Source: Cephalotus follicularis (taxonomy: Eukaryota; Streptophyta; Magnoliopsida; Oxalidales; Cephalotaceae). Taken from it: a stretch of 64,000 nucleotides of DNA. Location of the stretch: assembly GCA_001972305.1 (NCBI GenBank), contig BDDD01005037.1, positions 3,562 to 67,561 on the forward strand, given 5' to 3'. Shown piece after piece: positions 1,403 through 49,912 of this stretch. Made by a program: the position numbers and the translations under genes. Positions within the stretch are counted from its first letter, which is position 1. Each line of letters opens with the position of its first letter. The notes under the pieces are model-generated. The model ran no database searches and was not told the origin of the DNA. It worked only from the letters and a program-made list of their open reading frames with translations.

Positions 1403-1556
1403 CCAGTCGGCTGCCCTTCCCTAGCAGTCAGCTGTTCACCTGGAAGTCTGTTGCCAAGTGTCACGACTGTTGACCAGTCGGCTGGTTCCTCACGCCAGTC
1501 GACTGCCCTACACCTCAGCCTAACAGTCGGCTGGTATATCGTACCAGTCGGCTGTC
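1403..1556. repeat. Array of CAGTCGGCTG-type palindromes
   Basis: About six units of the form CAGTCGGCTG or CAGTCGACTG occur within 150 bp, at irregular spacing. Each is a full or one-step-decayed palindrome centred on GTCGAC. The same core occurs in the LTR of element B (23799-24010). Confidence 0.7.
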
Positions 1557-2076: not shown

Positions 2077-4364
2077 TGTAACGACCCCGACCCGAGCTCA
2101 CTAATAGCTCAAAGCAAACTCCGAAGATCGGTTGCGTTACGTTGGGTGTGAAACGTTACATCCTTTGGTACTCTTCTCTAAAAGTACATTACATCATAAA
2201 TTTCATGTCTCGCAACATAATACATAATGTTAAATTGAAACTTTACACATAATCATCTTATATAAAGATGTTATAACCATATCGTTTGTCTACATTACAC
2301 AGGATCATTCTTTTACATAAACATATATTACAGCGGAAAAACTTTATTCCTATTACATAATAAAACATTAATGCAACATCATTGCATAGTCTTTCATTCT
2401 CAAAAACTCCTTCTTAAGAGCTTCCTCTAAGCTCGCAATCTCCATTCATTCATTTCCTGAAAACATTTTATTTGAAAACAACATTGAAAGGAATGAGCAC
2501 AAAATAGCTCAGTAATGTGTTTTTATAGTAAACACATTTCATCATAACATTTTTCTAGTCAATACATATAACTAGAACATTTCATAAAACATATCACTTT
2601 TCTAATTAATATCATAACTAGATCATTTCGTAAACATGAAAATCATAAAAACCTTAATGAACCCTTTACACCGCTTCACCGGGGCATTGTGCACTCCACG
2701 ATTACTATCCTTACATCACATGCATGTCCGCGAGCACTTTACGTTCCATTAACATTGAGCCTTTCGCTCCATTAACATTGAGCATTTCGCTCCATTCCCC
2801 TTGGATCGTAATCCAAGGGCGGTTCATTCATCATATACTTTGAGTGATCAGCTCAAAGCATTCATAAAAATCATTTCATAACATTTCCTTTACAATTCAT
2901 AAACTTTTCTCTTCATTTGAATATATGATTCAAATGAGTTTATAAAAAAAAACAGTTTTGCATAGCTTTACGAAAACTGATAATTCATATAGAAATAAGC
3001 ATTTTCAGATAAAACTCAAAACATAAACATTAAAGTAGACATGTTTAAGATTTCAGAAAGCTCAAGATCATAACAATTAGTTAAGAATTGAATCCTCTAT
3101 GAATTTTTGAAAGTGGCTGGTTCCATGAGAAAACATGGCATGAGAAGTAAAATGAATCACGGATTCTCGTCAAGAATTTGACATAATTTAGAGATACATA
3201 AAACATAACAGTTAAAGAGGACATCGTAAGGTTTTCAAAACATCTATCCATTTAATTTTTCATCAAGAAACGAGTAAGATGTGATTTAAAGAAGTTGCTG
3301 CATAATTCATGAATAAAACAGTACCCAAACAGCAGTTTTAAAACATAAATTTTCATCAAGAAAACGGTAGAATCTTGAAACATGAAAAGCATAACAGTTG
3401 AAGAGGACATCCTAACGTTTCCAAAACATCCAACCATTCAAAATTTCATCAAGAATTATACAAGATATCAATTGAAAAATCTACTGCATAATTGAAAGCA
3501 AAACAGGGAATGCTTTGTAGAGAATGGGTATAGAATTTCCTTACTTTTGCTTTAGAATTCCTTTCTCTTTTGCTCTCCACGAATTCTTCACTTCACTATC
3601 AGCAGGAACACTTTCTTTCTCAGCCAAAATGACTGAGTTTCAACACTCTTAGGCATTAAATAGAAGGATAGCTTGTGAGGTAAGTTTTCCCCCTCTCACA
3701 CACTCAACTCTCTCTCTTGGCAGCCCATGTGACAAAATTCCAACCAATCCAGGTGTTTACACCTGTTAGATTATCAGGTAACACTTCATATCATCCTTCC
3801 CTGGCCTGCCACGTGTCCAAAATTAAAGATTTTTACTCACAAAATGCCAAATAGTCAGATTTGCAATTCTGTCTGTACCTCAAAGCGTCGGCGGTTACGG
3901 CATTTTCCTTAGTTTTTTTTTACCTCTAACCCGACTAAAGCGCTGACGCTTTCTTACAAAGCGTCGACGCTTTAAGTCTTCGTCCAAGTCAACTGACACA
4001 TTTAACTTCAACGCGTCGACGTCTAAAATTAGGACATCGACCGTTGCCCAAAGCGTCGACGCTTTCAATAAAACCGTCGGCGCTTTAGACAGTTTTGTTA
4101 ACTTTAGCCTTTTAGATCGACGTTTTCAGCATGACATTCATCCAAAACAAATATCCAAATAAAATTTTCTTCTGGGGGCGCTGCCCCCTGAACCCCTGCC
4201 CGCTGACCAGGCAGCGGGACCCCCCGTCCGCTCACCGGTGAGCGGAACCCCCGTACTCCCCGAGCGTAGGGTCATGCTACGGGTCCCTTAAACTATTTGC
4301 CAATTTACACAGTAGCAATCATTTTCCATAATTAATATCTTAAATGGAAACTTGGGTCATTACA
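2077..4364 (-). repeat. 3' LTR of element A
   Basis: Matches 9536-11842 along its length with scattered substitutions; I see about two differences in the first 160 bp. Termini are TG...CA. It carries the GTCGAC-type array near its right end. Confidence 0.93.
3882..4125. repeat. Array of AGCGTCGACGCTT-type palindromes (A, 3' LTR)
   Basis: Roughly ten units resemble AAGCGTCGACGCTT or decayed forms such as GCGTCGGCG, GCTGACGCTT and CATCGACCG, spaced about 15-30 bp. Many variants differ from the palindrome by CG to TG or CA changes, as expected from deamination of methylated CpG. Confidence 0.8.
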
Positions 4365-4435: not shown

Positions 4436-5621
4436 TCATCTCATGGTGTCTTCCAACTCCCAGGTGGCTTCTTCAACTTCGTGGTTTTTCCATAAAACTT
4501 TTACTAACAGAACAGTCTTGGTCTGCAGGACTTGTTCTTTGTAATCTAGGATCTCCACTGGTTGCTCGTTGTATGACAAGTCTTCATACACTTGAATAGG
4601 CTCAACTCTTAGAACATGAGATGGGTTGGCCATATATTTCCGTAATAGCGATACATGGAATACGTTGTGTACATGAGATAGACTTGGTGGCAAGGCAAGC
4701 CTATGCGCAACTTGTCCTATCTTTTCCAAAATCTCATATGGTCCAATGTATCGGGGACTAAGCTTTCCCTTCTTGCCAAACCGCATCACTCCCTTCCATG
4801 GAGATACCTTGAGATAAAACGTGATCTCCCAATTCAAACTGTAGCTCTCTCCGTCCCTTGTCCGCATAGCTCTTCTGTCTACTTTGCGCTGTTAAGAGGC
4901 ATTTCCGTATCAGCTTCACTTTTTCGGTAGTTACTTGTACCATTTCTGGTCCCAATAACTTCCGTTCTCCTACCTCTTCCCAACAGATAGGGGTTCGACA
5001 TCTTCGTCCATAAAGTGCTTCAAAAGGTGCCATCTGTATGCTTGCTTGGAAACTGTTGTTGTAAGCAAACTCAACCAGAGTGACATGCTGTTCCCAATTC
5101 CCTTGGAAATCTATAACACAAGCATGTAACATGTCTTCCAAAGTCTGTATAGTCCGTTCTGATTGCCCGTCTGTTTGCGGATGATACGTCGTACTGAAAT
5201 TCAACCTTGTACCCAAAGCATTCTGTAAACTCTTCCAAAAGCGTGACATGAAATGGGGATCTCGATCCGAAACGATCGATACCGGTACACCATGTAATCT
5301 GATGATCTCTTGTTCATAAATCCTTGCTAGTTGACTCAATGAATGACTGTCTTTGATCAGTAGAAAATGAGCCGACTTCGTTAAACGATCCACTATCACC
5401 CATATTGCATTATTCCCTTTAGCAGTCCTTGGCAGTCCTGTCACGAAATCCATACTAATATGCTCCCACTTCCATTCTGGTATGGGAAGCGACTGTAAGG
5501 TTCCTTTCGACAACTGATGCTCAGCTTTCACTTGTTGACAAACAAGACATGTTGACACAAAGTCTGCAATTTCTCTTTTCATATTATTCCACCAATAGAG
5601 ATCTCCCAAATCTCTATACAT
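4436..5621 (-). pseudogene. Element A integrase plus chromodomain
   Basis: The first segment (down to about 4820) has an integrase zinc-binding pair (CLVCQQVK), then the catalytic core with DFVTGLP, the DRLTKSAHF block and [12 protein letters not shown], as in Ty3 integrases. The second segment, in another frame, has [14 protein letters not shown] followed by a chromodomain ending [15 protein letters not shown]. The frame change falls near 4810-4830, just after residues ELGDHV, and looks like loss of one base. A stop at 5652 separates this region from RNase H. In chromoviruses the chromodomain tethers integrase to marked chromatin; here it is present but not translatable in one piece. Confidence 0.9.
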
Positions 5622-5651
5622 CTTTGTACTTCCAGGGTGTACGGAGAAATT

Positions 5652-7849
5652 TCAACTATGTGCTTCCATCATCAGTTCCTCTTTCAATTCTGCCTTATCT
5701 GGAACGCATAATCTTGTGTCGAATCTCAATACGTTGTCGGTTCCCAAGTTAAAGTGCGATACTTTTCCATTCTTCACTCCCTCTGCTATTTCCTTAAATT
5801 CCAAGACCTCAAACTGACTTTGCTTTATTCTCTCAACTAGAGAAGGTTGTGCTATGATTTGAAATAGGGAAGCCCCTTCTTCTTGTCTTATCACTTCCAA
5901 GTTCATTCGTTGGAAGTCCCTTATCAAATCTTCCTGTGTAGTGATCATCATCGCCAAGTTCCCCGTACTTTTTCGACTTAGGGCGTCTGCCACAACATTC
6001 GCTTTACCCGAATGGTATTGAATGGTGCAATCGTAATCTTTGATAAGCTCTAACCATCTCCTTTGCCTCATGTTTAACTACTTTTGGGTAAAAATATACT
6101 TGAGGATTATATGATCGGTGAAGATTTCACACTTCGCTCCATATAGATAGTGTCTCCAAATCTTCAGCGCGAAGATAACTGCAGCCAATTCCAAATCATG
6201 TGTAGGATAATTCTGTTCATGTGCTTTAAGCTGTCTGGAAGCATAGGCAATCACTTTTCCTTGTTGCATCAGCACGCAACCAAGTCCTTTGTGAGATGCA
6301 TCACTATACGCCACAAAACTTTCTGATTCCGTTGGTAATGCTAATATCGGGACATTCATCAGTCTTTCTTTCAACTCCAAGAAACTCTTCTCGCATTGGT
6401 CAGACCATTCAAACTTTACATTCTTCTGTGTCAACCTCGTGAGTGGGTTCGCAATACGAGAGAAATTCTCAACAAACCTTCGATAATAGCCTGCTAGTCC
6501 CAGAAAACTCCGTATCTCGGCTACTGAGGTAGGTCTCTGCCATTCTCTTATCGCTTCTATTTTAGTGGGATCCACAGAGATGCCCTCCCGTGTGATCACG
6601 TGTCCCAATAAGGATACCTCTTCTATCCAGAACTGGCATTTGCTGAACTTAGCGTAGAGCTGCTCCTTCCGCAGTATATGTAGTACACGGGTTAAATGCT
6701 CTTCGTGCTCCTCCCTACTCTTTGAGTATACTAGGATGTCATCAATGAAGACTATAACGAACTAATCCAAAAATTCATTGAAAATCTTGTTCATCAAACT
6801 CATAAACACTACTGGAGCATTTGTCAATCCAAACAACATTACCAAAAACTCGTAATGCCCATATCTTGTCCGAAAAGCAGTTTTCGGTATATCCTCTTTC
6901 TTAACTTTCACTTGATGGTAGCCTGATCGAAGATCAATCTTTGAGAAGTATCGAGCATTCTTGAGTTGATCAAACAAGTCATCAATCCTTGGTAGTGGGT
7001 ACTTGTTCCTAATGGTGACTTGATTCAACTCTCAGTAGTCAATGCAGAGTCTCATTGTCCCGTCCTTCTTTTTCACAAACAATACCGGTGCACCCCATGG
7101 TGATACACTTGGTCGGATAAATCCTTTATCCAAAAGCTCTTGTAATTGATCCTTCAATTCTTTCAGCTCAGCTGGTGCCATGCGGTAAGGGCTCTTTGAA
7201 ATAGGAGCTGTTCCCGGTACCACATCAATTGTAAACTCCACTTCTCGATCCGGTGGCATACCCGGTAAATCTTTAGGAAAAACATCGGTGAACTCCTTAA
7301 CAACATGTAACTCTTCTATCTTGATCTTCTCTTTATCGGTATCCATCACATAGGCAAGATAGCCTTCGCATCCTTTTTCCAACAATCGCTTAGCTTGCAT
7401 CGACGATATGATCTTTAAGGGTTCACTGGCTCCCATGCTTCGGAAAACAAACTCAAGTTGTTCCGGTAAGGAAAACCTAACTTCCTTCTTAAAACAGTCA
7501 ACACTAGCATGATTCGCTGAAAGCCAATCCATGCCTAGTATGATGTCAAACTTTAGGATTGCTAGAGGTACTAAGTCTACTAGCATCATCCTATCACATA
7601 ATATTAGGTCACATGACTTGTGCACTTTATCAGCCACCAAAGTATTACCACTTGGAGTTTCAACAGCTAAACCTATCTCCAAATCTTGTGATGGGGGACT
7701 TAAATATCGTGCAAAAGATAAAGACACAAAAGAATGCGTTGCCCCCGTATCAAACAATACATATGCAGATCTAGAGCATACGGGAAAAGTACCTGTCACC
7801 ACGTCATTGGGATTTTCCACCTCCTCAGCCGTCATGGCATAGGTTCTTG
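5652..7849 (-). pseudogene. Element A protease, reverse transcriptase, RNase H
   Basis: Domain order on the minus strand: protease with [11 protein letters not shown] (about 7770-7730) and ILGMDWL; reverse transcriptase with [38 protein letters not shown] and catalytic FIDD (about 6740); RNase H with [14 protein letters not shown] and a [12 protein letters not shown] block. All parts share one frame but are cut by stops at 7032 (TGA after IDY), 6762 (TAG after NEFLD), 6078 (TAG after IFTQK) and 5652 (TGA). Two of these sit where the family normally has codons one C-to-T step away. Confidence 0.92.
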
Positions 7850-8876
7850 CTGGTGCTCTTTGTTGCTGGGCTCCGTTCCCTCCTTGTCCTCCCGTCTTCG
7901 GTTGGGTGCAGTGATTGGACATATGTCCTTCTTGCCCACAGTTGTAACATCTGATCACCCTTTGATTTGGAGTTTGATTTGATCCTTGTTGACACACTTT
8001 AGCTAAGTGTCCTTGCTTTCCACATCTGTAACACACACCTGTCCCATATAAACATTTTCCATGGTGTCTTTTCCCACATTCTTGACAAATTTTTGTGTCC
8101 TGTCCTCCATCGGACCTTGCTTTCTTATTCTTGATATTGGAGGATTCACCAGCCTTCCTCTTCCCGTATCCTTGCTTCGTCCATTTTTGCTGACATCTTT
8201 TGCTATCAATCTCAATCCTCAACGCACATTTCAAAACCGCGTCGTACGTCTGCAGGTCTTGTGCTATCACCAGCCTTCGGATATAAGGCTTCAAACCATA
8301 AGAAAATCTAGTAGCCCTTCTCTCTTCTGTGGACACTAGATGAGTTGCATACCGGGACATCCTTGCGAAATTTGCCTCATATTGAGCCACTGTTTCAGAC
8401 TCACCTTGTTCCAATTGGAGAAAATCTTCCTCCATCTTATCTTTCAAAGCTTGCGGAAAATATTTGTTCATAAATATTTCTTTGAACTCTTCCCACGTCA
8501 TCACCACTCTTTCTCGACACGTCTTGGTTCTCTCAACCATACACCACCATTGATCCGCCTCTCCATCCAACTTGTATATTGAAAACTCTACTTTCTATCG
8601 GTCTGTGCAATCCGTTGCTCTAAAAATCTTCTCGTCCCCTTGGATCCATGCTTCCGCTTCCAAAGGATCGGTTGTTCCCGAAAAATTTTTTGGATTGTGC
8701 CTTGCAAACTGCTCTAGCGTCGGTCTTGATGGTGTATGCTCTTGATGATTATTGTCGTTGTTGTCGGCAATAACTTGAGCCAATCTGTTTAAAATTGCGC
8801 TCAACGAATTATCGTCCTCGTTGTTTTGTGCATTCGCGTTTCGCCTTTGTCCCCTTCCTCTTCTCGCGTCGGCCAT
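7850..8876 (-). pseudogene. Element A gag
   Basis: Starts MADARRGRGQRRN at 8876, the first ATG of the gag frame. The capsid-like part has the gypsy Retrotran_gag pattern (FSGTTDPLEAEAWI, then GEADQWW). Three zinc-knuckle-like blocks follow ([40 protein letters not shown]); the last two are clear CCHC motifs. An in-frame TAG at 8595-8597 interrupts capsid. Gag runs into protease without a frame change, so a single gag-pol polyprotein is likely ancestral. Confidence 0.9.
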
Positions 8877-9463: not shown

Positions 9464-9520
9464 CTGAAAATAGGTTAGCAAATACACAAATCATATCCTC
9501 GACACGTATCACAATTATCT

Positions 9521-9535: not shown

Positions 9536-11842
9536 TGTAACGACCCTGACCCGAGCTCACTAATAGCTCAAAGCAAACTCCGAAGATCGGTTGCGTTACG
9601 TTGGGTGTGAAACGTTACATCCTTTGGTACTCTTCTCTAAAAGTACATTACATCATAAATTTCATGTCTCGCAACATAATACATAATCTTAAATTGAAAC
9701 TTTACACATAATCATCTTATATAAAGATGTTATAACCATATCGTTGGTCTACATTACACAGGATCATTCTTTTACATAAACATATATTACAGCGGAAAAA
9801 CTTTATTCGTATTACATAATAAAACATTAATGCAACATCATTGCATAGTCTTTCATTATCAAAAACTCCTTCCTAAGAGCTTCCTCTAAGCTCGCAATCT
9901 CCATTCATTCATTTCCTGAAAACATTTTATTTGAAAACAACATTGAAAGGAATGAGCTCAAAATAGCTCAGTAAGGTGTTTTTATAGTAAACACATTTCA
10001 TCATAACATTTTTCTAGTCAATACATATAACTAGAACATTTCATAAAACATATCACTTTTCTAATTAATATCATAACTAGATCATTTCGTAAACATGAAA
10101 ATCATAAAATCCTTAATGAACCCTTTACACTGCTTCACCGGGGCATTGTACACTCCCCGATTACTATCCTTACATCACATGCATGTCCGCGAGCACTTTA
10201 CGCTCCATTAACATTGAGCCTTTCGCTCCATTAAGATTGAGCATTTCGCTCCATTCCCCTTGGATCGAAATCCAAGGGCGGTTCATTCATCATATACTTT
10301 GAGTGATCAGCCCAAAGCATTCATAAAAATCATTTCATAACATTTCCTTTACAATTCATAAACTTTTCTCTTCGTTTGAATAAATGATTCAAATGAGTTT
10401 AAAAAAAAAACAGTTTTGCGTGGCTTTACGAAAAGTGATAATTCATATAGAAATATGCATTTTCAGATAAAACTCAAAACATAAACATTAAAGTAGACAT
10501 ATTTAAGATTTCATAAAGCTCAAGATCATAACAATTGGTTAAGAATTGAATCCTCTATTAATTTTTGAAAGTGGCTGGTTCCATGAGAAAATAGGGCATG
10601 AGCAGTAAAATGAATCATGGATTCTCGTCAAGAATTTGACATAATTTAGAGATACTTAAAACATAACAGTTAAAGAGGAAATCTTAAGGTTTTCAAAACA
10701 TCCATACATTTAATTTTTCATCAAGAAACGAGTAAGATGTGATTTAAAGAATTTGCTGCATAATTCATGAATAAAACAGTACCCAAACAGCAGTTTTAAA
10801 ACATAAATTTTCATCCAGAAAACGATAGAATCTTGAAACATGCAAAGCATAAAAGTTGAAGAGGACATCCTAACGTTTCCAGAACATCCAACCATTCAAA
10901 ATTTCATCAAGAATTGGACAAGATATCAATTGAACAATCTGCTGCATAATTGAAAGCAAAACAGGGAATTCTTTGTAGAGAATGGGTATAGAATTTCCTT
11001 ACTTTTGCTATAGAATTCCTTTCTCTTTTGCTCTCCACGAATTCTTCACTTCACTATCAGCAGGAACACTTTCTTTCTCAGCCAAAATGACTGAGTTTCA
11101 ACACTCTTAGCCATTAAATATAAGGATAGCTTGTGAGGTAAGTTTTCCCCCTCTCACACACTCAACTCTCTCTCTTGGCAGCCCATGTGACAAAATTCCA
11201 ACCAATCCAGGTGTTTACACCTGTTAGATTATCAGGTAACACTTCATATCATCCTTCCCTGGGCTGCCACGTGTCCAAAATTAAAGATTTTTACTCACAA
11301 AATGCCAAAAAGTCAGATTTGCAATTATGTCTGTAGCTCAAAGCGTCGACGTTTTCCTTCTAAGCGTCGGCTGTTACGACATTTTCCTGAGTTTTTTTTA
11401 CCTCTATCTCGACTAAAGCGATGACGCTTTCTTACAAAGCGTCGACGCTTTAAGTCTTCGTCCAAGTCAACTGACACATTTAACTTGAACGCGTCGACGT
11501 CTAAAATTACGACATCGACCGTTGCCCAAAGCGTCGACGCTTTCAATAAAACCGTCGGCGCTTTAGACAGTTTTGTCAACTTTAGCCTTTTAGATCGACG
11601 TTTTCAGCATGACATTCATCCAAAACAAATATCCAAAAAAAAATTTCTTCCGGGGGCACTGCCCCCTGAACCCCTGCCCGTTGACCAGGCTGCGGGACCC
11701 CCCGTCCGCTCACCGGTGAGCGGAACCCCCGTACTCCCCGAGCGTAGGGTCATACTACGGGTCCCTTAAACTATTTGCCAATTTACACAGTAGCAATCAT
11801 TTTCCATAATTAATATCTTACATGGAAACTTTGGTCATTACA
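9536..11842 (-). repeat. 5' LTR of element A
   Basis: Partner of 2077-4364, TG...CA, about 2307 bp. Being the 5' copy in element orientation, it should hold the active promoter; no TATA box was assigned with confidence. Confidence 0.93.
11339..11603. repeat. Array of AGCGTCGACGCTT-type palindromes (A, 5' LTR)
   Basis: The counterpart of 3882-4125. It keeps units lost or altered in the other LTR, for example AAGCGTCGACGTTTTCC at 11340, so comparing the two LTRs shows unit decay since insertion. Confidence 0.8.
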
Positions 11843-16255: not shown

Positions 16256-16458
16256 GAGTTAACAAAATATATATATGCAACCTAAAAAGGAAATAAAAGA
16301 GGAAATCAGCATATTATTCCAATTTTATGTTACAACCATAACACTTGATCTTTAGTGCTTATGATTCCTCCCACTATTCTAATTGTATCTCATACCCCCA
16401 TGTGGAATTTGGGAAGTCCAACCTCCTAGTGGGGATTAGAATCTATCTCAGCATATCA

Positions 16459-16770
16459 TGGCCTCAGCTGTTGGCATGACAAACCACAATACCCAAGATA
16501 GGTAGGCTCGCTTGCTAATTTACACGACGCAGGGTCCAACCCTCGCTATGTAAGATCCGATCATGAGTATGGTCTCAGCTGTTGGCATGAAAAATCATTA
16601 GAGCCAGAATAAGTCATTACCCACAATCCTCAAAGAAATGCACTCATTTTGAAACACCCACACGTGTACATGACCAAGTGCGAAAACATAGCCATTTCCT
16701 TGCAGTGCCTAGCACTACTATTGACATGGCAATGGTCATACTGCAGACCTTAGCTGATGGCATAATCTTC
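16459..16770 (-). repeat. Leader motif copies in element G
   Basis: Three copies of a self-complementary motif on the minus strand (positions 16459-16486, 16570-16597, 16746-16770), such as GCCAACAGCTGAGGC and GCCATCAGCTAAGG. The GCC and GGC arms flank an AGCT core. Element D has the same motif at the matching place before gag. Confidence 0.7.
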
Positions 16771-22393: not shown

Positions 22394-25128
22394 TGTAACA
22401 CCCCCGGACGGTGGGAGTTGTCACGGGTCATATCATACAGAACATATCTGAACATAACATAGCCTATCTAATCATAACACTTCTTTATTAGCCAAAAACA
22501 TGGCAGACTTAACTTAACATTAAAACTTAACAGTTAACCATTTTAAACATTTGCGGAAAAACTCAAAACATAAATAAGGTTCCAAATTTAAAATATAAAA
22601 CATAACCATCAGTGTTTATGACTACTAGACATAACATAGGGATCACACTCCTAGGGATCCAAAGACATAGGGTAGTCATCACTCTTTCACACTTTCCCCC
22701 CGCTGCTCCCGAAAACCTGCCGCATGGAAACAAAAACGCGGCTGAGCAAACCTCAGTACGGATAAGGGAAATAAAAATAGTAAACGATAATTTTAAAAGT
22801 AGTAAGATTTCAATAAAACTCATAATATAAATCTTAAGCAATTAAAACAGATACATAATCGTAAAATCACATTTATACTTCCATAAGATCAATATAACTT
22901 TCGAAACATTTATGAATCATTTCATAAAATCATTTACGAATCATAGGTCATAAAACACAAATCATACTGAGTCACATACATATCATATAACATAAATTTG
23001 GCAAGGGAGGCGCTAATTCCACATGCCCACTAGAATTGAAGTGTACGGCACTACACAAGTCAATTCTCACATAACATATATCCGATCACACCTCGGATCA
23101 TATCTCAGATCACATACACTAGAATCGATTCATACGCCTCTATCATACATAGCGGATCCATAAATCCACCTCATGGGATTTATTCATACACTCAGAGACG
23201 CTGTAGTCTAATCACACCGCTACGGAAGTGTCACGTCCCCGTGCCAGGCCCACGACGTGCCTATGGTACGCCCCATAGGTGGGTAAAATACTCAGTATTC
23301 ATTTCAAAAATATTGAATTATCAAAATCAATTTAAAATCACATAAAATATGCTTTCACAAAACATATCGAAAAACCGCTCACAAGGGTATCATAACATAC
23401 ATTTCATAACATATTGTATCATTTCATATCATATGTATAAAGTCGGAATCATTTAAAATGTTAAACCAACTTTATTTTCGAAACGTGTCAAAGTCATAAA
23501 ACATTATAAATTTCACAAACGAAGAAGCATATCAAAACTGTTTTCAGTTCGAAACATCAGATAGCCAAGGAACAGAAAATCCGTACCTTATGCGCTCACA
23601 AAGTACTTACGGATAGACGATTCAAACGAATTCCACTTGAAGCACAATAATCTAAAAGGCATCCAAAATCATACGTATAAGAGTCTAAGACACATCAGAA
23701 GCATTAAACAGACTCTTAACAGTGTTTGGAAAAGACTCGGATCGATTCAAGGAACAAACGAATCAAAACAATTGAAAACAGTACATTTCTGGGCAAAACA
23801 GTCAACTATTACAGAGCACCAGCCGACTGGGGAAGCTTGGCAGTCGACTATTCATAAGGTCCAGTCGACTACTCAAACCAGCATGCAGGCAGTCGACTGG
23901 TTCATACATCCAGTCGACTACTCAACCTAAGACAGTCGACTATGTTCATATGGCAGTCGGCTGTTCATCCAATCCAGCCGACTGTCCACAGGAACAGCCG
24001 ACTGTTCTGGATGACAGAACAGTAGGAAGCTAGACAATTCAATATAGAAATGAGTTCAAATGATTTCTACATTAAGCCAGAGACACATGGACATAATTAT
24101 ATGACATAATATGACATTTATATGTCTCAGAAACACACAAATGACAGGAAAACAACTGGACAGTGGCTAGACTCTCAAAAGGAATCAAGAAGACATGCAT
24201 ACATATATGTCCTGATTCTGTCCATAATATTTTACAGATGTTATAAAACCAGTTTATGACAAGTCTATGTGTATTACACACGTTAACAGACTGATTAACA
24301 TTATGACAGAACATATTAACATAGGAATTGAAACCAAAGGACAGTAAGAGCATAAAAACTGAATTTATGACATTGGAACAAAACCATCACTGGAGGGAAT
24401 GAATTTAACTAACCTATAATGGTATTGCAAACACAGAAACAGCAGAAGGAACACTACAAAGCAGTTGTGAAATGGCTGCACACAAGGACAAGAAGGAAAC
24501 CAAACAAAGAGATACACAATATGCATAACAAACCAGAAGAATTCAACCTAAAAGAACAACAAAATGAGTTGAGATTACCTCTGTAACAATTTCACAAGGA
24601 TTATAGAAACTCCAACAGTGTAGATTCGGCAGTGAGAGGTGGAGAAAACAATGGCATGAACCAATACACTAGCATTCTTAAAATAAGAAGGAAAGGAGTG
24701 ATTTGGGGAATGAATAAGGAAGAAAGGAGGCAAGAATCTGTTGAATATGGAAAAGGGAGATTGAAGACGTATGAGAGTAATGAGGGAGGGAAAGAATTCG
24801 GGTGAAGGAAGGAGAAGAATAGGAAATAAGAAGAAAAAAGGAAAGAAAAGGAAGAAAAAGGAAAAGGAAAATAAAAGGAAATAAGGAAATAAATAAAATA
24901 AAAGGGTTTATAAAATAAAATGAATTGTTTTAATGAAATAAAATTTTGATAAAATAGGCCCAAACCCAACATAGCATTACATACCCAAAATTGGACTGGT
25001 ATCAGTCAGCCCAAATCACATAAGCCCAAAACATAGGGCAACCGGACTTTAAAATTAAACAAAATTAAAAAGCCCGAAAACACACACAGAATCCGTAAAA
25101 TACATTTACGAACAGACAGGGTATTACA
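22394..25128 (-). repeat. 5' LTR of element B, complete
   Basis: About 2735 bp, TG...CA, next to the primer-binding site. It includes the CAGTCGACTG array missing from the deleted 3' LTR. Confidence 0.9.
23799..24010. repeat. Array of CAGTCGACTG palindromes (B LTR)
   Basis: About ten units of CAGTCGACT(A/G), CAGTCGGCTG or CAGCCGACTG in 210 bp, spaced mostly 15-25 bp. CAGTCGACTG is a perfect 10-bp palindrome; the variants differ mostly by one transition. Confidence 0.85.
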
Positions 25129-27913: not shown

Positions 27914-28155
27914 GAGCGTCGACGTTTACAACATAAGCGTCGACGCTAAAACAAGGCGTCAACGAAAATCACAACTAAGCGTCGTCAAAAAATGATAGTT
28001 TACGATGAAAGCGTCGACGCTCAAACAAAGCGTTGACGTTTAAGACATAAGCGTCAACAGGAAGCAAAAATAGTTGACGCTTTAACTCATGCAAGATGAT
28101 AAAAACAGTTTTTTCTATGAACAGGCGTCGACACATAAGGTATAGGCGTTGAAGC
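27914..28155. repeat. Array of AGCGTCGACGCT units in solo LTR H (first block)
   Basis: About nine units of AAGCGTCGACGCT and decayed versions (GCGTCAACG, GCGTTGACG, GCGTCGTC). The core matches that of element A although the LTRs are otherwise different. Confidence 0.8.
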
Positions 28156-28735: not shown

Positions 28736-28876
28736 AAAGCGTCGACGGTCACGCAAAAGCGTCGGCACTTAACCCTTTTCAACTAAAGCATCGACGGTTG
28801 AAACAAGGCGTTAGCGCTTCACATATACGTGCCAAGGCGTCGATGGTTAAAATGATTGCGTTGACGCTTAACGCCT
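28736..28876. repeat. Array of GCGTCGACGG units in solo LTR H (second block)
   Basis: About six units such as AAAGCGTCGACGG, GCATCGACGG and GCGTTGACGC, set about 600 bp from the first block in the same LTR. Confidence 0.75.
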
Positions 28877-29882: not shown

Positions 29883-32091
29883 TGTTAGATAGGGTGACCC
29901 GATAAGCCATTGGACGGGCTTATGTATCAGACCTATTTATGTATACAAATAGTCTTTTTCCATAAATATGACATGTGCTAATCTGTTTATATTAATTATG
30001 GCAATATCACTTGTGTTTTATCACTTAATCGAAGTAGTCTAAATAACCCTACATACACTTGTGATGCCCTGACATAAGGTTGGATGCCAAGTATAAAGGC
30101 AGTGAGATTGGCTACCTTATTCCTTATGTCGAATTAGTTCCAAGTCATAGGTTCACTTTGTGGGCATTAGTGAACCGGATAGACTTGCACGTATGTTTCC
30201 TGCTTTTGGGAATTGGGGGATGGATTATCTCACTACCATCTGTGTTGTGACACTAGGGCAAATACGGGGTGCACGCTGGGAACGTGTACACTGAACAGGA
30301 CCCGCGTAGGAGACACTATTTGGATAGTTGCTATTCTTGTGTCAGTAGTGACTCCTACTTGTTGCGGTTGTGTATAAGTGCTAGTCACTTAGCAAGTTCT
30401 CAAACTCGTCTGATCCTTAGACCTGAGTGACTACTCTATATTGTATGGAGATGGTTATGCTTTGATCTCTACCTTATCCAGTTCTTACACGGGGCTAGCA
30501 ATCGGGTGGTCTTTGGGTATAATTGAATATATATGAATAAAAGGGAGTGCGCAATATGGGATTGTCGTACATGAGCGAAGGTGATCGGCCCTATTATGGT
30601 CTAATTGTACTTTGGACTTATGAAATCCTTGGCCAAGGTTGAGGTGGACTGGAAATTGGATTTCCGAAGGGTCTACCAAAGGTCCTAGTAATAATCAGAT
30701 ATTTTAGCCATTGAGATATTATCTAGGTTTGACATGTATCCTTACCCTAGACCTCAATCAGGGCCAAGTCTGACGAGGGATTATAGCACACACGAACCGA
30801 CGACTCAGAAAGTCTCGTATTACGGTGGTGTGTAATAAATCATGAGAAAATTAATTAGACTAATTTTCATCTGGATAATATTGGATATTAGTCTGGAAGC
30901 ATTTTAAATAGGTTTGGGACCATTTATAATGGTTTAACCGAACCATAGGGGTATTTCGGTAATTTATGAACACCACCAATTTTAACCGAGATTTTAACAG
31001 GTCTCTACCTGATAATGATTTTTTCATAAATATATTGGAAATATTTAGTCTTGGTGACACTTATAGAATCAACTATTGGTTAGGTGGATTTTGCGAATTG
31101 TGTCATCGTTAAATGGTGACACATTTGCTTGATCTTATTTAATTAATATGCTATGGGATATGTGACATCACTAAAATGAGTACGACTCATTTAAGTAATT
31201 GTTGGTTTTTTTCTTGGAAAAGTGGACATGTGTTATATAAAGAATGAGTTGGACTCATTTTTGACACATGTAAGGCCACCCCACTAATAAAGGGATTGGG
31301 AACATGTTTTTCCTGTTAAGCGTCAACGCTTAGTGTCTAAGCGGGAAAATGAAATACAAAGTTCCCGCTCTTCTCTTGACAGGGCACAATGCCACAAATG
31401 ATACGGGCACGTCCTTCTCCCACTCCCAGACGTTTTTCCTTCTCATAGAAAAAAAGGGAGGACGTGGGTGAAGTGGTAAACGTGTTCTTAGAGAAAATGG
31501 CAGAAAAAAAAAGGAGAGTGACAATGTCGTGGGGTGCGATATTTTTTGTGTCAAAAACAGAGAACAAAATTGGCTTGGAGTCTGCAATTCCTCTCTTTTC
31601 CCTTCACTGATTTTTGTTCACCAAATTTGGAGCTAACCTAGGGTGGATTGTTATTGACGACCTCTATCAATTTCAACGTTCCCTTTGTGGGCATAGATCA
31701 TTAGTAAAACACAAATTGTATTATATAGCTGGACGGCTGCTGAAATTGGAGTTTGGGGTTTGGTACAGTAGGCTTTGCCGACTTGGAGGAACTAAAATCT
31801 TGGAGGGAGTCTTCTCAAGCGAGTACCGACAAAGACGAAGGAGCCATCACATTGTTATTGTTCCTATTGATTGTCTATGTCATTGTTTCATCACATAAGC
31901 ATGTATATGTGATGACTATTTGGTTATGATGTGATGTGGTGTTCCTTGGACCTGAAATTTGTAAAATTGGACCTGGTTTTACTATGGTGTTAAGAGTTTA
32001 TAAATTTGCTACCTAAACTGAAAATTTTATTTGCACCTCTTAACACCCTTGGTCAAGTTTTTGCCATGGGGATGAACTTCCATTCCCAAAA
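29883..32091 (+). repeat. 5' LTR of element D
   Basis: Start TGTTAGATAG is certain. The end is uncertain: a TTAACA terminus lies at 32040-32045, but the primer-binding site is only at 32093. The truncated partner cannot settle it. A small AAGCGTCAACGCTT palindrome lies at 31318. Confidence 0.75.
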
Positions 32092-32601: not shown

Positions 32602-32813
32602 CTAACCGTCGACGGTTGGACTAAGCCCTGAGCTTAAGCGCTAATGAGAACGTTGAGCGCTAACGGTTTATATAAACTGTTGATGCTTAAGTGCCAAAGC
32701 ATCGACGGTTAGCCTAAAGCACGAACGGTTACTCAAGGCACTAACGGTTTGAAATAAACTATCGACGCTTAGAGTGTAACCAGCGACGCTTTAGACAAAC
32801 TGTCAATGCTTAG
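32602..32813. repeat. Array of AACCGTCGACGGTT-type units in D leader
   Basis: About twelve units alternate between AACCGTCGACGGTT, GCATCGACGGTT, GCGCTAACGGTT and TATCGACGCTT forms over 210 bp. The first unit is a perfect 14-bp palindrome. The array is about 500 bases after the primer-binding site, outside any LTR. Confidence 0.75.
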
Positions 32814-40838: not shown

Positions 40839-42565
40839 ATTTGAGAAATATGAATACTTTGGAGAAGGTATGAATTCCTGGCAGCATGCTATACTAATTT
40901 TTCTCGTGAGATACTATCAATAGGGACTTATTACTTGCATCCCATATTCTGCAATCCTCTTAAATATATGTACTTATGAATGATTCTGCAGATAATGAGG
41001 CAGAGACGAATCGAGAGAGGAGCCTTAACTCTTGCTTATGCTCATCTCAAATGCTTAAGATGTGGTCTAGTATGATGGTCTGGACTGGAATGCTAGTCTG
41101 GAATGCTACTTTGGTTGCTGGTCTGGTGTGGAGTTCAGTTGCCTACTAGTCTGAAATGATTCATTGGTTGCTGGTCTGGTGTGGAGTTAGCTGCCCGGTG
41201 GAGATGGCCCTTTTATGATGAAGTGATCTGTTGTGATGCCGTGTTTGTGGTGCTGGTTGATTGAGGCTATCTGCTAGTAGCCTACAGATCTGCCTGCTAT
41301 CTTGCATGCAGGTGGAGCATGCTGGGGTCAGTTGGGATGGTCTGCTACTGGTTTGGTAAGTTGGCTTGGTATCTGGAGCACAGCTGCTATGATGGTCTGT
41401 GTTGACGTTTAAGTCTCAATCCTTGTTTTGATGATAACCTATTTGCATCTAACTAAGTTGATTTATGTGCAAGGAATTACAAGTTGAATATCAAAGTCTA
41501 AATGCCATCTGCAGACAAAGAAGTCGACTCCTTTCCTAAAAGCATCGACTCCTTTCATTCCTTGTGTCATGTGGTCTGGTGGTAAGCCTTCAAACCTTAT
41601 GTAACTTGTTCTATATTAAGTAACCTGGAGTGTTTTTCATGTAAGGACAGCCTTGTGTTGTCTCAACTTGCTACGTACTGCTACTGCTGTTGGTCTCAAC
41701 TTGGATGTCTCATCATCAAAAGCACTGGTTGATTCACTCGATCAAGCAGTGGTAAGCTTTTATATCATTTCAAGTTTGCTTTGCTGGCACTGGGCCCTAC
41801 TCTTTTACTGTCAATGTCACCCAAAGAATCTGGCTTCTCGGTTTGATTCATATTAATCTTCTTGGTAGCTAGGTCACATTTTTTCCACTTTTGTGCGCAT
41901 ATTGGCTTGTCAAGCTTCTGAGTTGCTACCTAGTTGTTCTTTCCAGATTTTTAATTCATTAGTTTGTTCTATAGGAAACGTTGTGGTTTTATCTTAGTAA
42001 CATTTCATTTTCCTTTCTATAGAAAAAAATATTGAAACAAGCCTAATGGCTAACACAGGTTAATCGCATTACATTTTCCTTTTTCCTCCTGTCCTTTCTC
42101 TTTGTTAGTTCTTATTCAAAATAATTTTATTGGTCAGGGTGATGATCCATACTTCAACAAGCTAATCTGCATTCTGGCAACTAGATGCATGACGCAGGTA
42201 ATTTCACATGAATAATTGAATTAGTCTCAATATTGAGGCATCTCTAAAACAAATTGTTTTGCCTTGTAACTACATTTCAGGCGGTCTATTTCTGTAGCAG
42301 GGATCTCAGCCCTCCAGAATTTCATCATTATGGGATTGCATCACCGTTATATACTCATTTCACTTCTCCTATTAGAAGATATGTTGGTCAGTGAGAATGT
42401 TAGCTTTGTGATGCTTACTTTGGTGTTTGAATTATTGTAATTTGGGTTTTGTATTTTTCCTTCTTGCAGATGTCATTGTGCACAGGTTGCTTGCAGCGTC
42501 TTTAGGGATATGCAAGCTTCCACCAGTATTTCAAGACAGAAGTCAACTCACCAATGTCGCTGACA
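40839..42565 (+). pseudogene. RRP44/DIS3-like exosome nuclease fragment, six exons with introns
   Basis: Collinear exon pieces encode the RNB catalytic region of plant RRP44: 40839-40867 (LRNMNTLEK), 40992 to about 41063 (IMRQRRIERGALTLA), 41651-41751 (GLNLDVSSSKALVDSLDQAV), 42138-42197 (DPYFNKLICILATRCMTQ), 42281-42386 ([25 protein letters not shown]) and 42470-42565 (DVIVHRLLAASLGI, KLPPVFQDRSQLT). Most are bounded by AG acceptors and GT donors in phase, so the copy was taken from genomic DNA, not mRNA. The N-terminal PIN and OB domains, the catalytic Asp cluster and the S1 domain are absent, and other sequence has entered the second visible intron. It is a captured gene fragment, not a functional gene. 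Confidence 0.88.
41402..41566 (+). repeat. Fragment of SIRE-type LTR inside the RRP44 fragment
   Basis: TGTTGACGTTTAAGTCTCAA and what follows match, in the opposite orientation, the LTR end of element E (revcomp of 43770 leftward). The match includes a GTCGACTCC unit and ends near 41566. It is an older, truncated relative of E in an intron of the captured gene. Confidence 0.75.
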
Positions 42566-43050: not shown

Positions 43051-43198
43051 GTGTAATTTTTTTGCTCTTCATTGTCTTGTTTTTTGGTGTATTTACCTTT
43101 CTGTTTTTAATTCATTTTGATGCAAATTGTGTTATCTTGTGGGTGACAGTCGACCCCCAAGAGTGCTCTGTCAACGCTTAATGAAACCTGAATAAACC

Positions 43199-43770
43199 TT
43201 TCCCGGGTCTTGTTCATTTAAAAAGACGTCGACTTCTTTTCAAAAGGCGTCGATGTCTTTTCTGGGAAATCTCCAGGTATTGACACATGAACATCACGTC
43301 GATTTCTTCTGTAAGAGTCGATGTGTTTTTTGGGAAATCCAGGTTGCTCTAGGAAGATGTCGATGTTCATTGAAAGGCGTCGATTCGTACGAACGTCGAT
43401 GTCTTTGCCTTTAGAAGTCGATGTCATTGCACGAAAATGTCCTGTAACTTTGGCACCTAAAAGCGTCGATGTCTTTGAGTTAGGGATCGACTTCTTTCGT
43501 ACGGACGTCGATGTTTTTGCCTTTAGAAGTCTTTGTCTCCTTGTGAAATTGTCCTGTAACTTTAGGCATGAAAGGCGTCGATGTCTTCTTGAAAGGCGTC
43601 GATGTCTTTCTGTACGGACGTCGACTTCTTCCCTGGAAGGTCAATGTCTTTTGTCCTGCATATAGTATTTTTGCTTTGGTACTTATTTTGTAATTCCTTG
43701 CACATCAAGTAGATTTGTTAAATGCAAATATGTTATCATCAAAACAAGGATTGAGACTAAATAGTCAACA
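43199..43770 (-). repeat. 3' LTR of element E with AAGGCGTCGATGTCTTT array
   Basis: On the minus strand it starts TGTTGACTATTTAGTCTC right after the polypurine tract. About fifteen motif units (GGCGTCGATGTCTTT, ACGTCGACTTCTTT and similar) occupy 43219-43650. It matches 48226-48803 at roughly 95 percent or better by eye. The outer end is short compared with the right copy. Confidence 0.85.
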
Positions 43771-43784
43771 ATCTCCCCCTTTTT
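43771..43784 (-). other. Polypurine tract, element E
   Basis: The minus strand reads AAAAAGGGGGAGAT directly before the LTR start TGTTGAC. Confidence 0.88.
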
Positions 43785-45972: not shown

Positions 45973-46256
45973 GAGGTCGACTTTTTATGAAGAAGTCGAT
46001 TTATGAGAAAAAGACGTCGACGTTATTGTAAAAGAGGTCGATGCGTTCTTTAAAATAGAGCTGCAAAAACGGTGCGTTTTGAAAAGCATCGATGCATTTT
46101 AAAAGTAGTCGACGTGTTTTAGTGAAAAACAAAGGAGTCGATGTTTTTCAATAAGGATCGACGGCATTTTCATACGGCAGGATTTTTCCAGAAAAGGAGT
46201 CGATGCGTTTTAGCAAAGCATAAAATTTCCAGAAAAGAAGTCGACTCTTTTGTAAA
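45973..46256. repeat. GTCGA motif array between pol and third ORF of E
   Basis: About eleven units such as GAGGTCGACTTTTT, GACGTCGACGTT, GCATCGATGCATTTT and GAGTCGATGCGTTTT, spaced about 20-35 bp. They are outside the LTR but resemble its array units. Confidence 0.75.
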
Positions 46257-46355: not shown

Positions 46356-48164
46356 TCATTCAATCTCACATAAACCTAATTCTCCTCTAAACTTAGAAAA
46401 AGTGTTCTCATCTAAGGGTTTTGTGAAAATGTCCGCGACTTGTTCTTCGGTCGGGACGAAAACTAATTCTATATCACCTTTTTCAATATGGTCTTTAATG
46501 AAGTGATATCTAATGTCTATGTGCTTGGTTCTTGAGTGATGAACATGATTTTTTCCTAAGCAAATAGCACTAGTGTTGTCATACCTAATTGGTACTTTTT
46601 CAAAAGTAAACCCATAATCAAGGAGTTGTTGCTTCATCCACATTACTTGTGCGCAACAACTGCCCGCGGCAATGTATTCAACTTCAGTAGTTGAAAGAGC
46701 TACTGAATTTTGTTTCTTGCTAAACCAAGAAATGAGCATATTGCCTAAGAATCGACAAGTACCACTTGTGCTCTTTCTATCCACTTTATATCCTCCGAAA
46801 TCGGCATCAGAGTAAGTGTGTAGGTCAAATGATGATTTCCTAGGATACCATAATCCTAAGGTCGGTGTATATGCTAAATATTTGAAAATGCGTTTTACGG
46901 CATGGAAATGTGATTCTTTTGGACAAGCTTGAAATCTGGCACACAAACAAACACTAAACAATATATCCGACCTACTTGCCGTTAAATAGAGCAAAGATCC
47001 TATCATACTCCTATATAGTTTTTGATCGATTGACTTACCTTGCTCATCTTTGTCAAGCTTTGTTGTAGTGCTCATGGGTGTCTTGCTCTTTTTGGCACTC
47101 TCCATCCCAAATCTCTTAAGTAGGTCCTTGACATACTTTGATTGATTGATGAAGATGCCTTCCTCCAATTGTTTGACTTGAAGTCCGAGGAAGTAATTGA
47201 GCTCACCCATCATGCTCATCTCGAATTCCACCTGCATAATCTTAGCGAAGTTCTTGCACAAGTTTTGGTTAGTAGAACCGAATATGATATCATCTACATA
47301 CACTTGAAAAATCAAAATTTCATTTTTGAAAGATTTTGTAAAAAGTGTTATGTCAATAGTGCCTCTTTTAAAACCATTTTCAAGTAAATATCCACTAAGC
47401 TTTTCATACCAAGCTCTTGGAGCTTGTTTTAGTCCATATAAAGCCTTTGAAAGCTTAAAAACGTGATTAGGATAATGGGGGTTTTCAAATCCGGGAGGTT
47501 GTTCCACATACACTTCCTCCTTAATTAGCCCATTTAAAAATGCACTTTTGACATCCATTTGAAAAAGAGTAAAATCTTCAAAAGAAGCATAAGCAAGCAA
47601 CATACGAATAGATTCTAATCTTGCTACGGGTGCATAAGATTCATCAAAGTCAATTCCCTCTTCTTGGGAATAACCCTTAGCAACAAGTCTAGCCTTGTTC
47701 CTAATTACAATACCTTGGTCATCTACCTTATTCCTATATACCCATTTTGTACCTATTATATTTTGATTACTACGTCTAGGTACTAAGTTCCATACTTTAC
47801 TCCTTTCAAATTGGTTCAATTCCTCTTGCATGGCATTGATCCAATTTGTATCTTTTTCGGCCTCATTTATATTTTTAGGCTCGATTTGAGATAAAAAGGC
47901 AATATAATTATGATTAATGCTACTTCTAGTAGAAACATCTAATCTAGGGTTACCTATAATGGCTTCATGTGGATGTCCTCTTACCACCTTCAATGTTTGA
48001 TCATGAAGCGCCTCTTGATAGTCTTCTTGAGGTGCATCTCCTTCGGTAGATTCCTCCCTTTTAGCTTCATCTATATTAATCTTGCTAACACCATTTTCAA
48101 TGAAATCTACACAATCATCAACATTAACTTCTTTTGGAAGTTTTGGGTTAGATTCATCAAAAAT
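46356..48164 (-). CDS. Element E pol fragment: reverse transcriptase and RNase H
   Basis: Open from the N at 48165 to a stop at 46356. RT blocks: [71 protein letters not shown] and catalytic [12 protein letters not shown]. RNase [53 protein letters not shown] and [11 protein letters not shown]. No stop or frame change is present and the catalytic Asp pair is intact, unlike every other pol in the window. The N-terminal half of the polyprotein (gag, protease, integrase) is missing beyond the N. Confidence 0.93.
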
Positions 48165-48165
48165 N
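48165..48165. other. Single N at an element-internal junction
   Basis: The only ambiguous base noticed in the window. Left of it is the linker between integrase and RT; right of it is LTR array sequence. A lone N exactly at this jump suggests an assembly join, not biology. Confidence 0.9.
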
Positions 48166-48803
48166 AGAAAGGCGTCGATGTCTTTGTAGCTGATAGCCGT
48201 TGTAGTGCTTGAGCTAGCCGTTCCAGTTTTCCCGGGTCTTGTTCATTTAAAAAGACGTCGACTTCTTTTCAAAAGGCGTCGATGTCTTTTATGGGAAATC
48301 TCCAGGCATTGAGCCATGAACATCACGTCGATTTCTTCTATAAGAGTCGATGTGTTTTCTGGGAAATCCAGGTTGCCTAGGAAGACGTCGATGTTCATTG
48401 AAAGGCGTCGATGTCTTTCGTACGAATGTCGATGTCTTTGCCTTTAGAAGTCGATGTCATTGCACGAAAATGTCCTGTAACTTTGGCACCTAAAAGCGTC
48501 GATGTCTTTGAGTTAGGGATCGACTTCTTTCGTACGGACGTCGATGTTTTTGCCTTTAGAAGTCAATGTCTTCTTGTGAAATTGTCTTGTAACTTTAGGC
48601 ATGAAAGGCGTCGATGTCTTCTTGAAAGGCGTCGATGTCTTTCTGTACGAACGTCGACTTCTTCCCTGGAAGGTCAATGTCTTTTGTCCTGCAGATAGTA
48701 TTTTTGCTTTGGTACTTATTTTGTAATTCCTTGCACATCAAGTAGATTTGTTAAATGCAAATATGTTATCATCAAAACAAGTATTGAGACTAAATAGTCA
48801 ACA
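48166..48803 (-). repeat. 5' LTR of element E (inner end at the N)
   Basis: Matches 43199-43770 from CCCGGGTCTTG onward and ends AGTCAACA at 48803. The 60 bp next to the N (another GGCGTCGATGTCTTT unit plus tagctgatagcc) have no partner in the left LTR. No primer-binding site is seen, consistent with missing sequence at the N. Confidence 0.82.
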
Positions 48804-48902: not shown

Positions 48903-49912
48903 TACAATATACAATTTGCATATGTTGCATTCATGCATTCTAAATGGATTGAATGGATTGTTGTTATTAATTGATGATTGATGGTTGAACGAATGATTGT
49001 GTGCGATGGATGATTGTGTGCTGAGTATAGAATTTTTTGGGTTTCCATCTGTTCTTCGAACTCCCTTGTTAAGGTCAACGCGTCGACGCTTGGCTGATAG
49101 CGTCGACGCCTTGAAGTGATCAGTTGACACCTTGAGAATAGTGAGTCGATACGATATGTGTTTCTTCGTGATTCTATGCATTAATCAGCACAACACGTCA
49201 ATGCATAGCGTTTACGCATAACAATTGATAGCACAACGCGTTAACACGATTCATGATTGCTAGTTAACGCCTAAGGAAATGGACGAACACGTAAGTGAGT
49301 AACGTTAAACGCAACATAGCAGAATAGCGCTTAGCGTCGACACTTTAAGCATTGCAACAGCTGACGAGTAAAGCAGTGTCGACGCCTAAACCCTCTGTTT
49401 CGCCCAAAAATTGATTGGTTTCTCATGGGTTTCAATCCCAAATGATACTGGGCTAGCGCCCAAGGCTACCGAGCATACCTACACTACTGAATGCTGAGCA
49501 GACCTGCTCTTTTGAATGCCAAGCAGACCTGTCCTTAAGGCTGCCAAGCAGACCTACGCTACTGAATGCAGAGCAGACCAACGTCGAAAGGCAGAAGGCA
49601 GACTAAGTGAAATCTTCTCATAATACCAAGTGCTACGAAATTGGAATAGTATATTTCTACTTTAAATTGTGGTTGTTGAGGGCTAAGCCCATTTATAAAC
49701 TGTTGATTCCTCCTTCGGGAGTGTGGTTATATGTAAATTTTGTTTTCTTTACAAGGGGCATAGGTCCGATAAACGGATACTACATGCCCCATTTTCGTAA
49801 AATTCTAAAGTTTTAAAATTATAGCACTTTTGGATGATGAGATTTAAGGAATGAAAGGAAGGTGATCACGTGTCGGGTCATGGGGGTTTCCCTCATGGTT
49901 TGGGGCGTGACA
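48903..49912 (-). repeat. Gypsy-type LTR fragment with GTCGAC array
   Basis: The right end GGGGCGTGACA is the mirror of TGTCACGCCCC, a common gypsy LTR start on the minus strand. Inside, 49073-49391 holds about ten units such as AACGCGTCGACGCTT and AGCGTCGACGCC, and 49480-49600 holds repeats of GCAGACC with GAATGC. The left limit is uncertain. No gene is seen. Confidence 0.5.

Follow-up and report, generated by a model that had tools for sequence, protein, structure and literature searches.

Why do LTR retrotransposons of different superfamilies within one plant genome carry arrays of the same short palindrome? The question is raised by a 64,000-nt stretch of DNA (hereafter the window, to which all counts refer) from Cephalotus follicularis, the Australian pitcher plant, a eudicot of the order Oxalidales. 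The window is full of LTR retrotransposons, and a preliminary description had noted irregular arrays of palindromes centred on GTCGAC in both its Ty1/copia and its Ty3/gypsy elements. It had offered three readings, namely host-factor binding sites, anti-silencing targets comparable to the VANC-bound repeats of VANDAL transposons, and spread by gene conversion. Here, we examined the excess of the palindrome, the spacing and composition of its units, and the elements that carry it.

Excess and confinement of GTCGAC

GTCGAC occurs 34 times in the whole window, against 5.6 copies expected from dinucleotides, and is its top over-represented palindromic 6-mer. A comparison of GTCGAC density with shuffled sequence had been proposed in the preliminary description, and the excess held: with the second LTR copies masked, 28 copies were counted against 5.0 in shuffles, a number reached in none of 300 shuffles. 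In the same masked sequence, GTCGAC ranked first among the 64 palindromic 6-mers, and its densest cluster held 5 copies per 250 bp, compared with at most 3 in shuffles. The arrays, which span 3,048 bp when both LTR copies are counted, contain 32 of the 34 copies; the other two lie at 36843 and 41523, and the frequency of GTCGAC outside arrays is not elevated. At least one exact GTCGAC was present in all 11 stretches examined (Table 1), confirming that arrays exist at the places described.

Each stretch was also compared with 500 dinucleotide shuffles of its own composition, counting cores within one mismatch. The core count was reached in none of the 500 shuffles for 9 of the 11 stretches, in 1 for positions 49073–49391, and in 19 for the leader of copia D, the weakest array, which has a single exact core and three cores within one mismatch. 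A chance origin of the arrays was ruled out by the window-wide and per-stretch shuffles, and a general excess of GTCGAC by the near confinement of its 34 copies to arrays, with just 2 elsewhere. The array pattern matched 13 contigs in IMG/VR, which were set aside as probable chance matches. No tRNA genes were found in the window, and no promoter position was assigned in the LTRs, where TATA boxes were sought by eye and by pattern only.

Table 1. Positions of arrays, single units and element parts in the window (core, GTCGAC)
Feature	Position	Strand	Remarks
Array, LTR-like segment of uncertain family	1403..1556	.	CAGTCGGCTG/CAGTCGACTG palindromes; exact and one-mismatch cores
Gypsy A 3' LTR	2077..4364	-	TGTAATGACC...GTTACA
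Array, gypsy A 3' LTR	3882..4125	-	3 exact cores, 8 within one mismatch
Gypsy A gag, protease, RT, RNase H, integrase	4439..8594	-	Domain matches
Gypsy A 5' LTR	9536..11842	-	Followed by PBS-like TGGTATCAGAG
Array, gypsy A 5' LTR	11339..11603	-	4 exact cores, 11 within one mismatch; longer than 3' LTR array by one 21-bp unit
Gypsy B 3' LTR	17957-19017		Lacks ~1.7 kb present in 5' LTR, including the whole array
Gypsy B 5' LTR	22394..25128	-	TGTAATACCC...GGGTGTTACA, then TGGTATCAGA
Array, gypsy B 5' LTR	23799..24010	-	5 exact cores, 11 within one mismatch; CAGTCGACTG dialect
Array H1, LTR H	27914..28155	-	AGCGTCGACGCT dialect
Array H2, near LTR H	28736..28876	-	1 exact core, 5 within one mismatch
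Single degenerate unit, copia D 5' LTR	31317..31332	+	AAAGCGTCGACGCTTT match
Degenerate array, copia D leader (not LTR)	32602..32813	+	One perfect AACCGTCGACGGTT
Units beside copia-E-like LTR fragment, opposite orientation	41523..41554	+	Palindrome matches
Array, copia E 3' LTR (Sirevirus-like)	43149..43660	-	3 exact cores, 16 within one mismatch
Sirevirus polypurine tract of copia E	43773..43780	-	AGGGGGAG, then AT/TG at 3' LTR; agrees with published motif
Copia E env-like ORF, 483 aa, PF20167	44416..45867	-	Between pol and 3' LTR
Array between copia E pol and env-like ORF	45973..46256	-	4 exact cores, 9 within one mismatch
Copia E pol remnant (RVT_2)	46356..48242	-	Starts at truncated 5' LTR
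Array, truncated 5' LTR copy of copia E	48228..48690	-	
Array, LTR-like fragment (49-kb fragment)	49073..49391	+	4 exact cores; fragment ends GGGGCGTGACA near 49912

Spacing and palindrome units

Spacing was analyzed in nine arrays, each taken once, which together hold 78 cores within one mismatch, 27 of them exact. Neighboring cores were 19–22 bp apart in 38 of 69 spacings (random placement: mean 6.4, maximum 17 in 2,000 trials) and exactly 21 bp apart in 23 of 69 (mean 1.6, maximum 8 in 2,000 trials). The 21-bp mode is present in arrays of both superfamilies; the regular spacing described earlier holds across Ty1 and Ty3, with a mode of 21 bp rather than about 20 bp. When palindromic 6-mers were taken window-wide with one mismatch, the share of 19–22 bp spacings was highest for GTCGAC (43 of 209 sites), the runner-up being ACGCGT (13 of 145). 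The combined autocorrelation of the nine arrays peaked at lag 21 (z 8.0; nine control stretches gave 1.7). A power spectrum was taken over eight arrays, with that of copia D left out, and gave periods of 7.0 (z 10.3), about 23.25 (z 8.3), 10.25 (z 6.5), and 21 (z 4.3), and the best period between 9 and 30 bp was about 21 only in the gypsy A and 49-kb arrays, other single arrays mostly lying near 10–11 bp. The 21-bp regularity is local, and phase breaks over whole arrays. The form 21k+7 accounts for 14 of the 24 spacings that are not near a multiple of 21 (for example, 23864–23892 and 1498–1526); we can account for these only as a harmonic of 21 combined with 7-bp slips, and phasing by two helical turns fails to cover them.

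The 16-bp palindrome AAAGCGTCGACGCTTT was taken from gypsy A, whose 3' LTR array contains two perfect copies. Allowing at most 3 mismatches, it has 26 matches, compared with 0.10 expected, and these lie in gypsy A, H, the 49-kb LTR fragment, and copia D and E. Matches in copia sequence alone also exceeded shuffles, with two in copia D DNA (31317 and 32696; shuffle mean 0.013, maximum 1 in 300 shuffles) and three in copia E with its related fragment (41539, 43460, and 46083; shuffle mean 0.023, maximum 2), in agreement with the claim that the core is kept across Ty1 and Ty3. A second dialect, consisting of CAGTCGACTG and one-mismatch forms such as CAGTCGGCTG, was found in gypsy B and the 1.4-kb segment (14 matches against 0.94 expected). 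The flanks had been said to differ from family to family; this is so for gypsy B and the 1.4-kb segment, with their CAGTCGACTG, but AAAGCGTCGACGCTTT is common to gypsy A, H, the 49-kb fragment, and copia D and E. Twelve of the 78 cores read GTTGAC or GTCAAC (for example, at 27958, 28032, and 28053), which are products of CpG decay; these forms contain TTGAC, the core of the WRKY W-box, and W-boxes may be decay products of GTCGAC.

Carrier elements and known relatives of the arrays

The LTRs of gypsy A and B are built alike. LTR lengths of 2.3 kb (A) and 2.7 kb (B) fall within the Del range of 1.1–4.8 kb, and the two elements have similar LTR ends and primer sites; we take their TGTAA...TTACA ends and iMet PBS to be traits of Del/Tekay chromoviruses. 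Gypsy B encodes Ty3 gag, protease, RT, and RNase H domains. For the chromodomain that such elements carry at the integrase C-terminus, gypsy A gives a match to SH3_Tf2-1 (E 1.9e-25) and a weak Chromo match (E 0.011) that falls below the Pfam cut-off. A, B, and H are provisionally classed as Del/Tekay-type on LTR ends, primer site, and domains rather than on a tree, and the 49-kb fragment is taken as gypsy-type from its end only. LTRs B and H share a 971-bp alignment (65%), with the main array lying 463 bp from the aligned block in B and 438 bp in H, suggesting that core and place were kept while the arms changed. The families had been called unrelated; arrays do occur in Ty3 and in two copia lineages, but the gypsy LTRs are partly related through this B/H alignment, and the gypsy families appear to represent fewer independent origins than had been assumed.

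Copia E bears hallmarks of a Sirevirus-like element, namely a polypurine tract with attachment site, four such tracts after env, and an env-like ORF, the last being a trait of part of the genus. The identical tracts are clustered between env and the 3' LTR (43773, 43995, 44032, and 44087); the octamer AGGGGGAG also occurs at three other places (15089, 53596, and 60636). The PF20167 ORF is env-like and encodes a putative envelope protein. Its best-scoring match comes from Cephalotus follicularis (91% identical over 93% of its length); the best 120 of 323 matches are all from this species, in which the ORF seems to be highly multiplied. A protein search with copia E pol scored 7,984 proteins, and among the best 120 those named come from various plants; six pattern matches to pol in IMG/VR included no relative. 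The Sirevirus PBS TATCAGAGC belongs beside the 5' LTR, and the 5' LTR copy of copia E stops at 48228, followed by pol. This copy breaks off inside its array and continues directly with pol (48228–48242); the LTR end, primer site, gag, and integrase appear to have been deleted.

Copia D is distinct from copia E, the reverse transcriptases being 24% identical over 220 residues. Besides the features in Table 1, its 3' LTR has two units 21 bp apart, at 39628 and 39649 (at most 4 mismatches). It carries the polypurine-tract-like AGTGGGAG, a form described as common in non-Sirevirus copia elements (PMC2829016). The unit is thus carried by both superfamilies and by two copia lineages, weakly in D.

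Arrays of this type have a published precedent, which the preliminary description, citing VANC, had missed. Palindromic, high-copy, CpG-rich repeated-motif (RM) boxes, said to form a CpG island, are described from the LTR and from upstream of the env-like gene of Sireviruses (Bousios et al. 2010, PMC2829016). According to the accessible text of that paper, they are specific to Sireviruses, being present in 13 of 21 Sireviruses and in none of 30 classic Ty1/copia elements, in a data set described without Ty3/gypsy elements; a regulatory role was proposed, and a single common factor was not found. CGG-CCG is given there as the RM box signature, which is absent from Tnd-1, and a grapevine Sirevirus box, CGGTCGACCG, has the same GTCGAC core as the arrays described here. 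Copia E shares its element type and both array locations, the LTR and the stretch upstream of env, with the RM-box Sireviruses, but its arrays have no CGG-CCG signature, and their core is GTCGAC or GTCGAT with varied arms. Unlike RM boxes, the box is here, together with its spacing, also a feature of gypsy LTRs and of another copia element. The carriers gypsy A, B, and H are not Sireviruses, A and B having Ty3/gypsy domains and the H LTR being related to that of B, and no 21-bp spacing is reported for RM boxes in the accessible part of PMC2829016. A maize palindrome, CACCGGACNNNGTCCGGTG, occurs in structured regions of Copia and Helitron elements (PMC10760457); as far as that text is accessible, it is similar in being one palindrome common to different superfamilies of one genome, but differs in its core, in involving Helitron and Copia instead of Ty3 and Ty1, and in that no spacing is given.

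Our search for literature on GTCGAC with retrotransposons found no paper, nor, in coverage that mostly excluded subscription papers, any description of one spaced box common to Ty3 LTRs, Sireviruses, and other copia elements; the accessible part of a paper on virus-like attachment sites (PMC4963935) holds no sequences for LTR classification. While the array type is known from Sireviruses, the sharing of box and spacing with gypsy elements looks new, and the gypsy arrays call into question whether such boxes are a Sirevirus speciality.

Regulatory and other readings of the arrays

We lean, if only slightly, toward reading the arrays as cis-regulatory modules that a dimeric host factor would bind, that were acquired convergently, and that were remodelled partly by 21-bp units. 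A host DNA-binding protein would recognize the GTCGAC-centred dyad as a dimer, and adjacent sites two helical turns (about 21 bp) apart would place bound dimers on the same DNA face, where they could act jointly. The arrays would probably enhance transcription from the LTR and, in the Sirevirus, also of the env-like gene; several retrotransposon lineages of one genome would have converged on the GTCGAC site, with arrays growing and shrinking partly by 21-bp units. We infer the factor, its cooperative binding, and the effect on transcription from what was directly observed, which is the arrays with their spacing and common palindrome, indels of unit size in two of the LTR pairs, and a CpG density that is high in most arrays. 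A dyad spaced by two helical turns, in which arms are conserved while spacers vary freely, has the look of sites for a dimeric DNA-binding protein, and the placement in LTRs and upstream of env, as for the Sirevirus RM boxes with their proposed regulatory role, supports a regulatory reading. We counted in its favor the over-representation and confinement of the core, the 21-bp mode, the common 16-mer, the conservation of arms but not spacers between gypsy A, H, and 49 kb and Sirevirus E, the B and H arrays with one core at nearly one place but different arms, and the high CpG o/e, and against it the phase breaks, the GC below 0.5 in 9 of 11 arrays, the 21k+7 spacings, the likeness of spacers within arrays, the 5-bp indel of copia E, the two arrays without CpG enrichment (B and 1.4 kb), the location of one array in a leader, and the lack of a single common RM factor. 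Of the interpretations offered earlier, predicted host-factor sites fit best, while gene conversion is unlikely and a self-encoded VANC-like protein is unsupported in gypsy A.

The arrays could instead act as RNA, with transcribed palindromes forming hairpins that feed Dicer and silencing or serve a step of the RNA life cycle. RNA folding was compared with 60 shuffles per stretch in ten array stretches and three control stretches. Seven of the ten array stretches folded more strongly than their shuffles, with z of −2.8 or below (B −8.5; A −6.2 and −5.5; D −4.5; E before env −4.2; H1 −4.1; E 3' LTR −2.8), and maize Sirevirus palindromes are described as small-RNA hotspots in the accessible texts of PMC5311732 and PMC10760457. 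But H2, the 49-kb array, and the 1.4-kb array (z −0.5 to −1.7) folded no better than controls (−0.4 to −1.9), any dense palindrome array folds, and hairpins tolerate any stem, with no need of a fixed core and spacing. The authors of PMC10760457, in its accessible part, suspect a functional cost of structure loss and point to cis-regulation. We regard an RNA role as unlikely.

Another possibility is that the arrays are neutral by-products, 21-bp slippage repeats that formed in each family, with GTCGAC common to them by chance or by an old common origin. The sole indel longer than 1 bp between the gypsy A LTRs is a 21-bp unit inside the array (at 3894/11352), and the copia D pair has a 22-bp indel; the copia E pair has a 5-bp indel, which is not unit-size. 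The unit-size indels in A and D indicate that arrays change partly by whole units, the same length having been reached in separate lineages. Spacers within one array are alike above chance (0.34–0.55 compared with about 0.26 in five arrays tested), so part of the regularity comes from tandem duplication, and the relatedness of the B and H LTRs and the similar LTR ends and primer sites of A and B also agree with a neutral origin. Slippage, however, does not account for a core, a 16-mer, and a unit length that are the same in Ty3 and Ty1 elements, and GTCGAC is first of 64 palindromes yet not raised outside arrays. We compared 32 gypsy units (A, H, and 49 kb) with 25 Sirevirus E units over ten arm and six spacer positions, using 300 draws. 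The arms agreed above the null (0.376 against 0.258, sd 0.014), whereas the spacers of these Ty3 and Ty1 elements agreed only at chance level (0.220 against 0.244, sd 0.012), which also speaks against a neutral origin. Agreement of the arms with the B/1.4-kb dialect was at chance level (0.22–0.26), so that only the core is common there. A neutral origin seems about as improbable to us as a role in RNA.

CpG content bears on a further possibility, that a protein bound to the arrays and encoded by the host or by another element keeps the LTR free of CpG methylation. CpG o/e was 1.3–2.2 in 9 of 11 array stretches, compared with 0.59 outside arrays; arrays B and 1.4 kb were not enriched (0.65 and 0.62), and the stretch of two units at about 41.5 kb had a value of 0.43. 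As GC was below 0.5 in 9 of the 11 array stretches, we speak of high CpG o/e and not of CpG islands; the gypsy A 3' LTR array, for example, has a CpG o/e of 2.14 at GC 0.44, and the copia E arrays have 1.33 and 2.12, against 0.59 outside, at GC 0.44 and 0.37. CpG transitions between LTR pairs, which arose after insertion, affected 2 of 116 CpG bases in the arrays of A and E, compared with 9 of 112 elsewhere in the LTRs of A and B (Fisher p 0.03), a pooled test of small numbers that draws on two insertions with arrays and leaves out the older copia D pair (29 of 138). By part, transitions numbered 0 of 52 (array) and 7 of 94 (remainder of the LTRs) in A, 2 of 64 in the E array, and 2 of 18 in B; for A alone, array against rest, Fisher p was 0.05. 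The rarity of CpG transitions in arrays hints at less methylation.

Against such protection, the A array is not otherwise conserved, with 0.042 non-CpG differences per site compared with 0.027 in the rest of the LTR, and the 12 of 78 cores that are CpG-decay products suggest that some arrays are, or were, probably methylated. VANC-bound VANDAL repeats are likewise short motifs in mobile elements, with a binding protein encoded by the element, and the arrays resemble them as repeated short motifs that could recruit a protein. Gypsy A differs in having no extra ORF of at least 180 aa for a VANC-like protein, since all three of its ORFs of that size match gag/pol domains (smaller ORFs lie at 5655–6077, 141 aa, without a family match, and at 9080–9490, 137 aa); copia E has its PF20167 ORF. 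We consider anti-silencing quite unlikely. The same low credence goes to a bolder version, in which one host protein would read GTCGAC sites phased at 21 bp as a code in elements of both superfamilies, Ty1/copia and Ty3/gypsy, and keep their promoters CpG-unmethylated, a convergent, shared entry point for anti-silencing with the dialects GCGTCGACGC and CAGTCGACTG as escape variants.

CpG-rich LTRs are known from the Del lineage, in which, according to the accessible text, 5' CpG islands are present in all groups except I (eudicots) and II (Cruz et al. 2014, PMC4029996). These islands lie in the upstream half, vary in length, and were proposed to present a moving target for silencing. The Del-type LTR of gypsy A is likewise CpG-rich over a stretch of its upstream half, but unlike the island-bearing groups gypsy A resides in a eudicot, and its array, at GC 0.44, may miss the island criterion; no palindromic box is described for Del islands in the accessible part of that paper.

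Passage of arrays between families by recombination or gene conversion is highly improbable: the copia D leader and the gypsy H array share short blastn matches (75% over 44 bp and 66% over 125 bp), but such matches are expected between arrays that have unit and spacing in common, no array with the unique flank of one superfamily was seen inside the other in the window, and exchange of whole arrays between gypsy and Sirevirus, which would carry spacers too, was rejected given spacers that match at chance beside matching arms.

If the arrays are indeed regulatory, a host factor docked by both superfamilies would act as a shared switch of LTR activity; its identification would allow the co-regulation of unrelated elements in one genome to be tested. 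The arrays provide exact probes for this, namely the 16-bp palindrome, the two dialects, and the 21-bp spacing.

Two observations concern the surroundings of copia D. An inverted match of 70% over 1.1 kb links 16277–17407 with 32997–34144, in the copia D leader region, and GTCGAC is absent from the 560 bp at 17400–17960 next to it. The sequence that follows the aligned end of the copia D 3' LTR (39981 onward) starts with CACTACAAGAAAAA, which we take to be like the end of a CACTA transposon.
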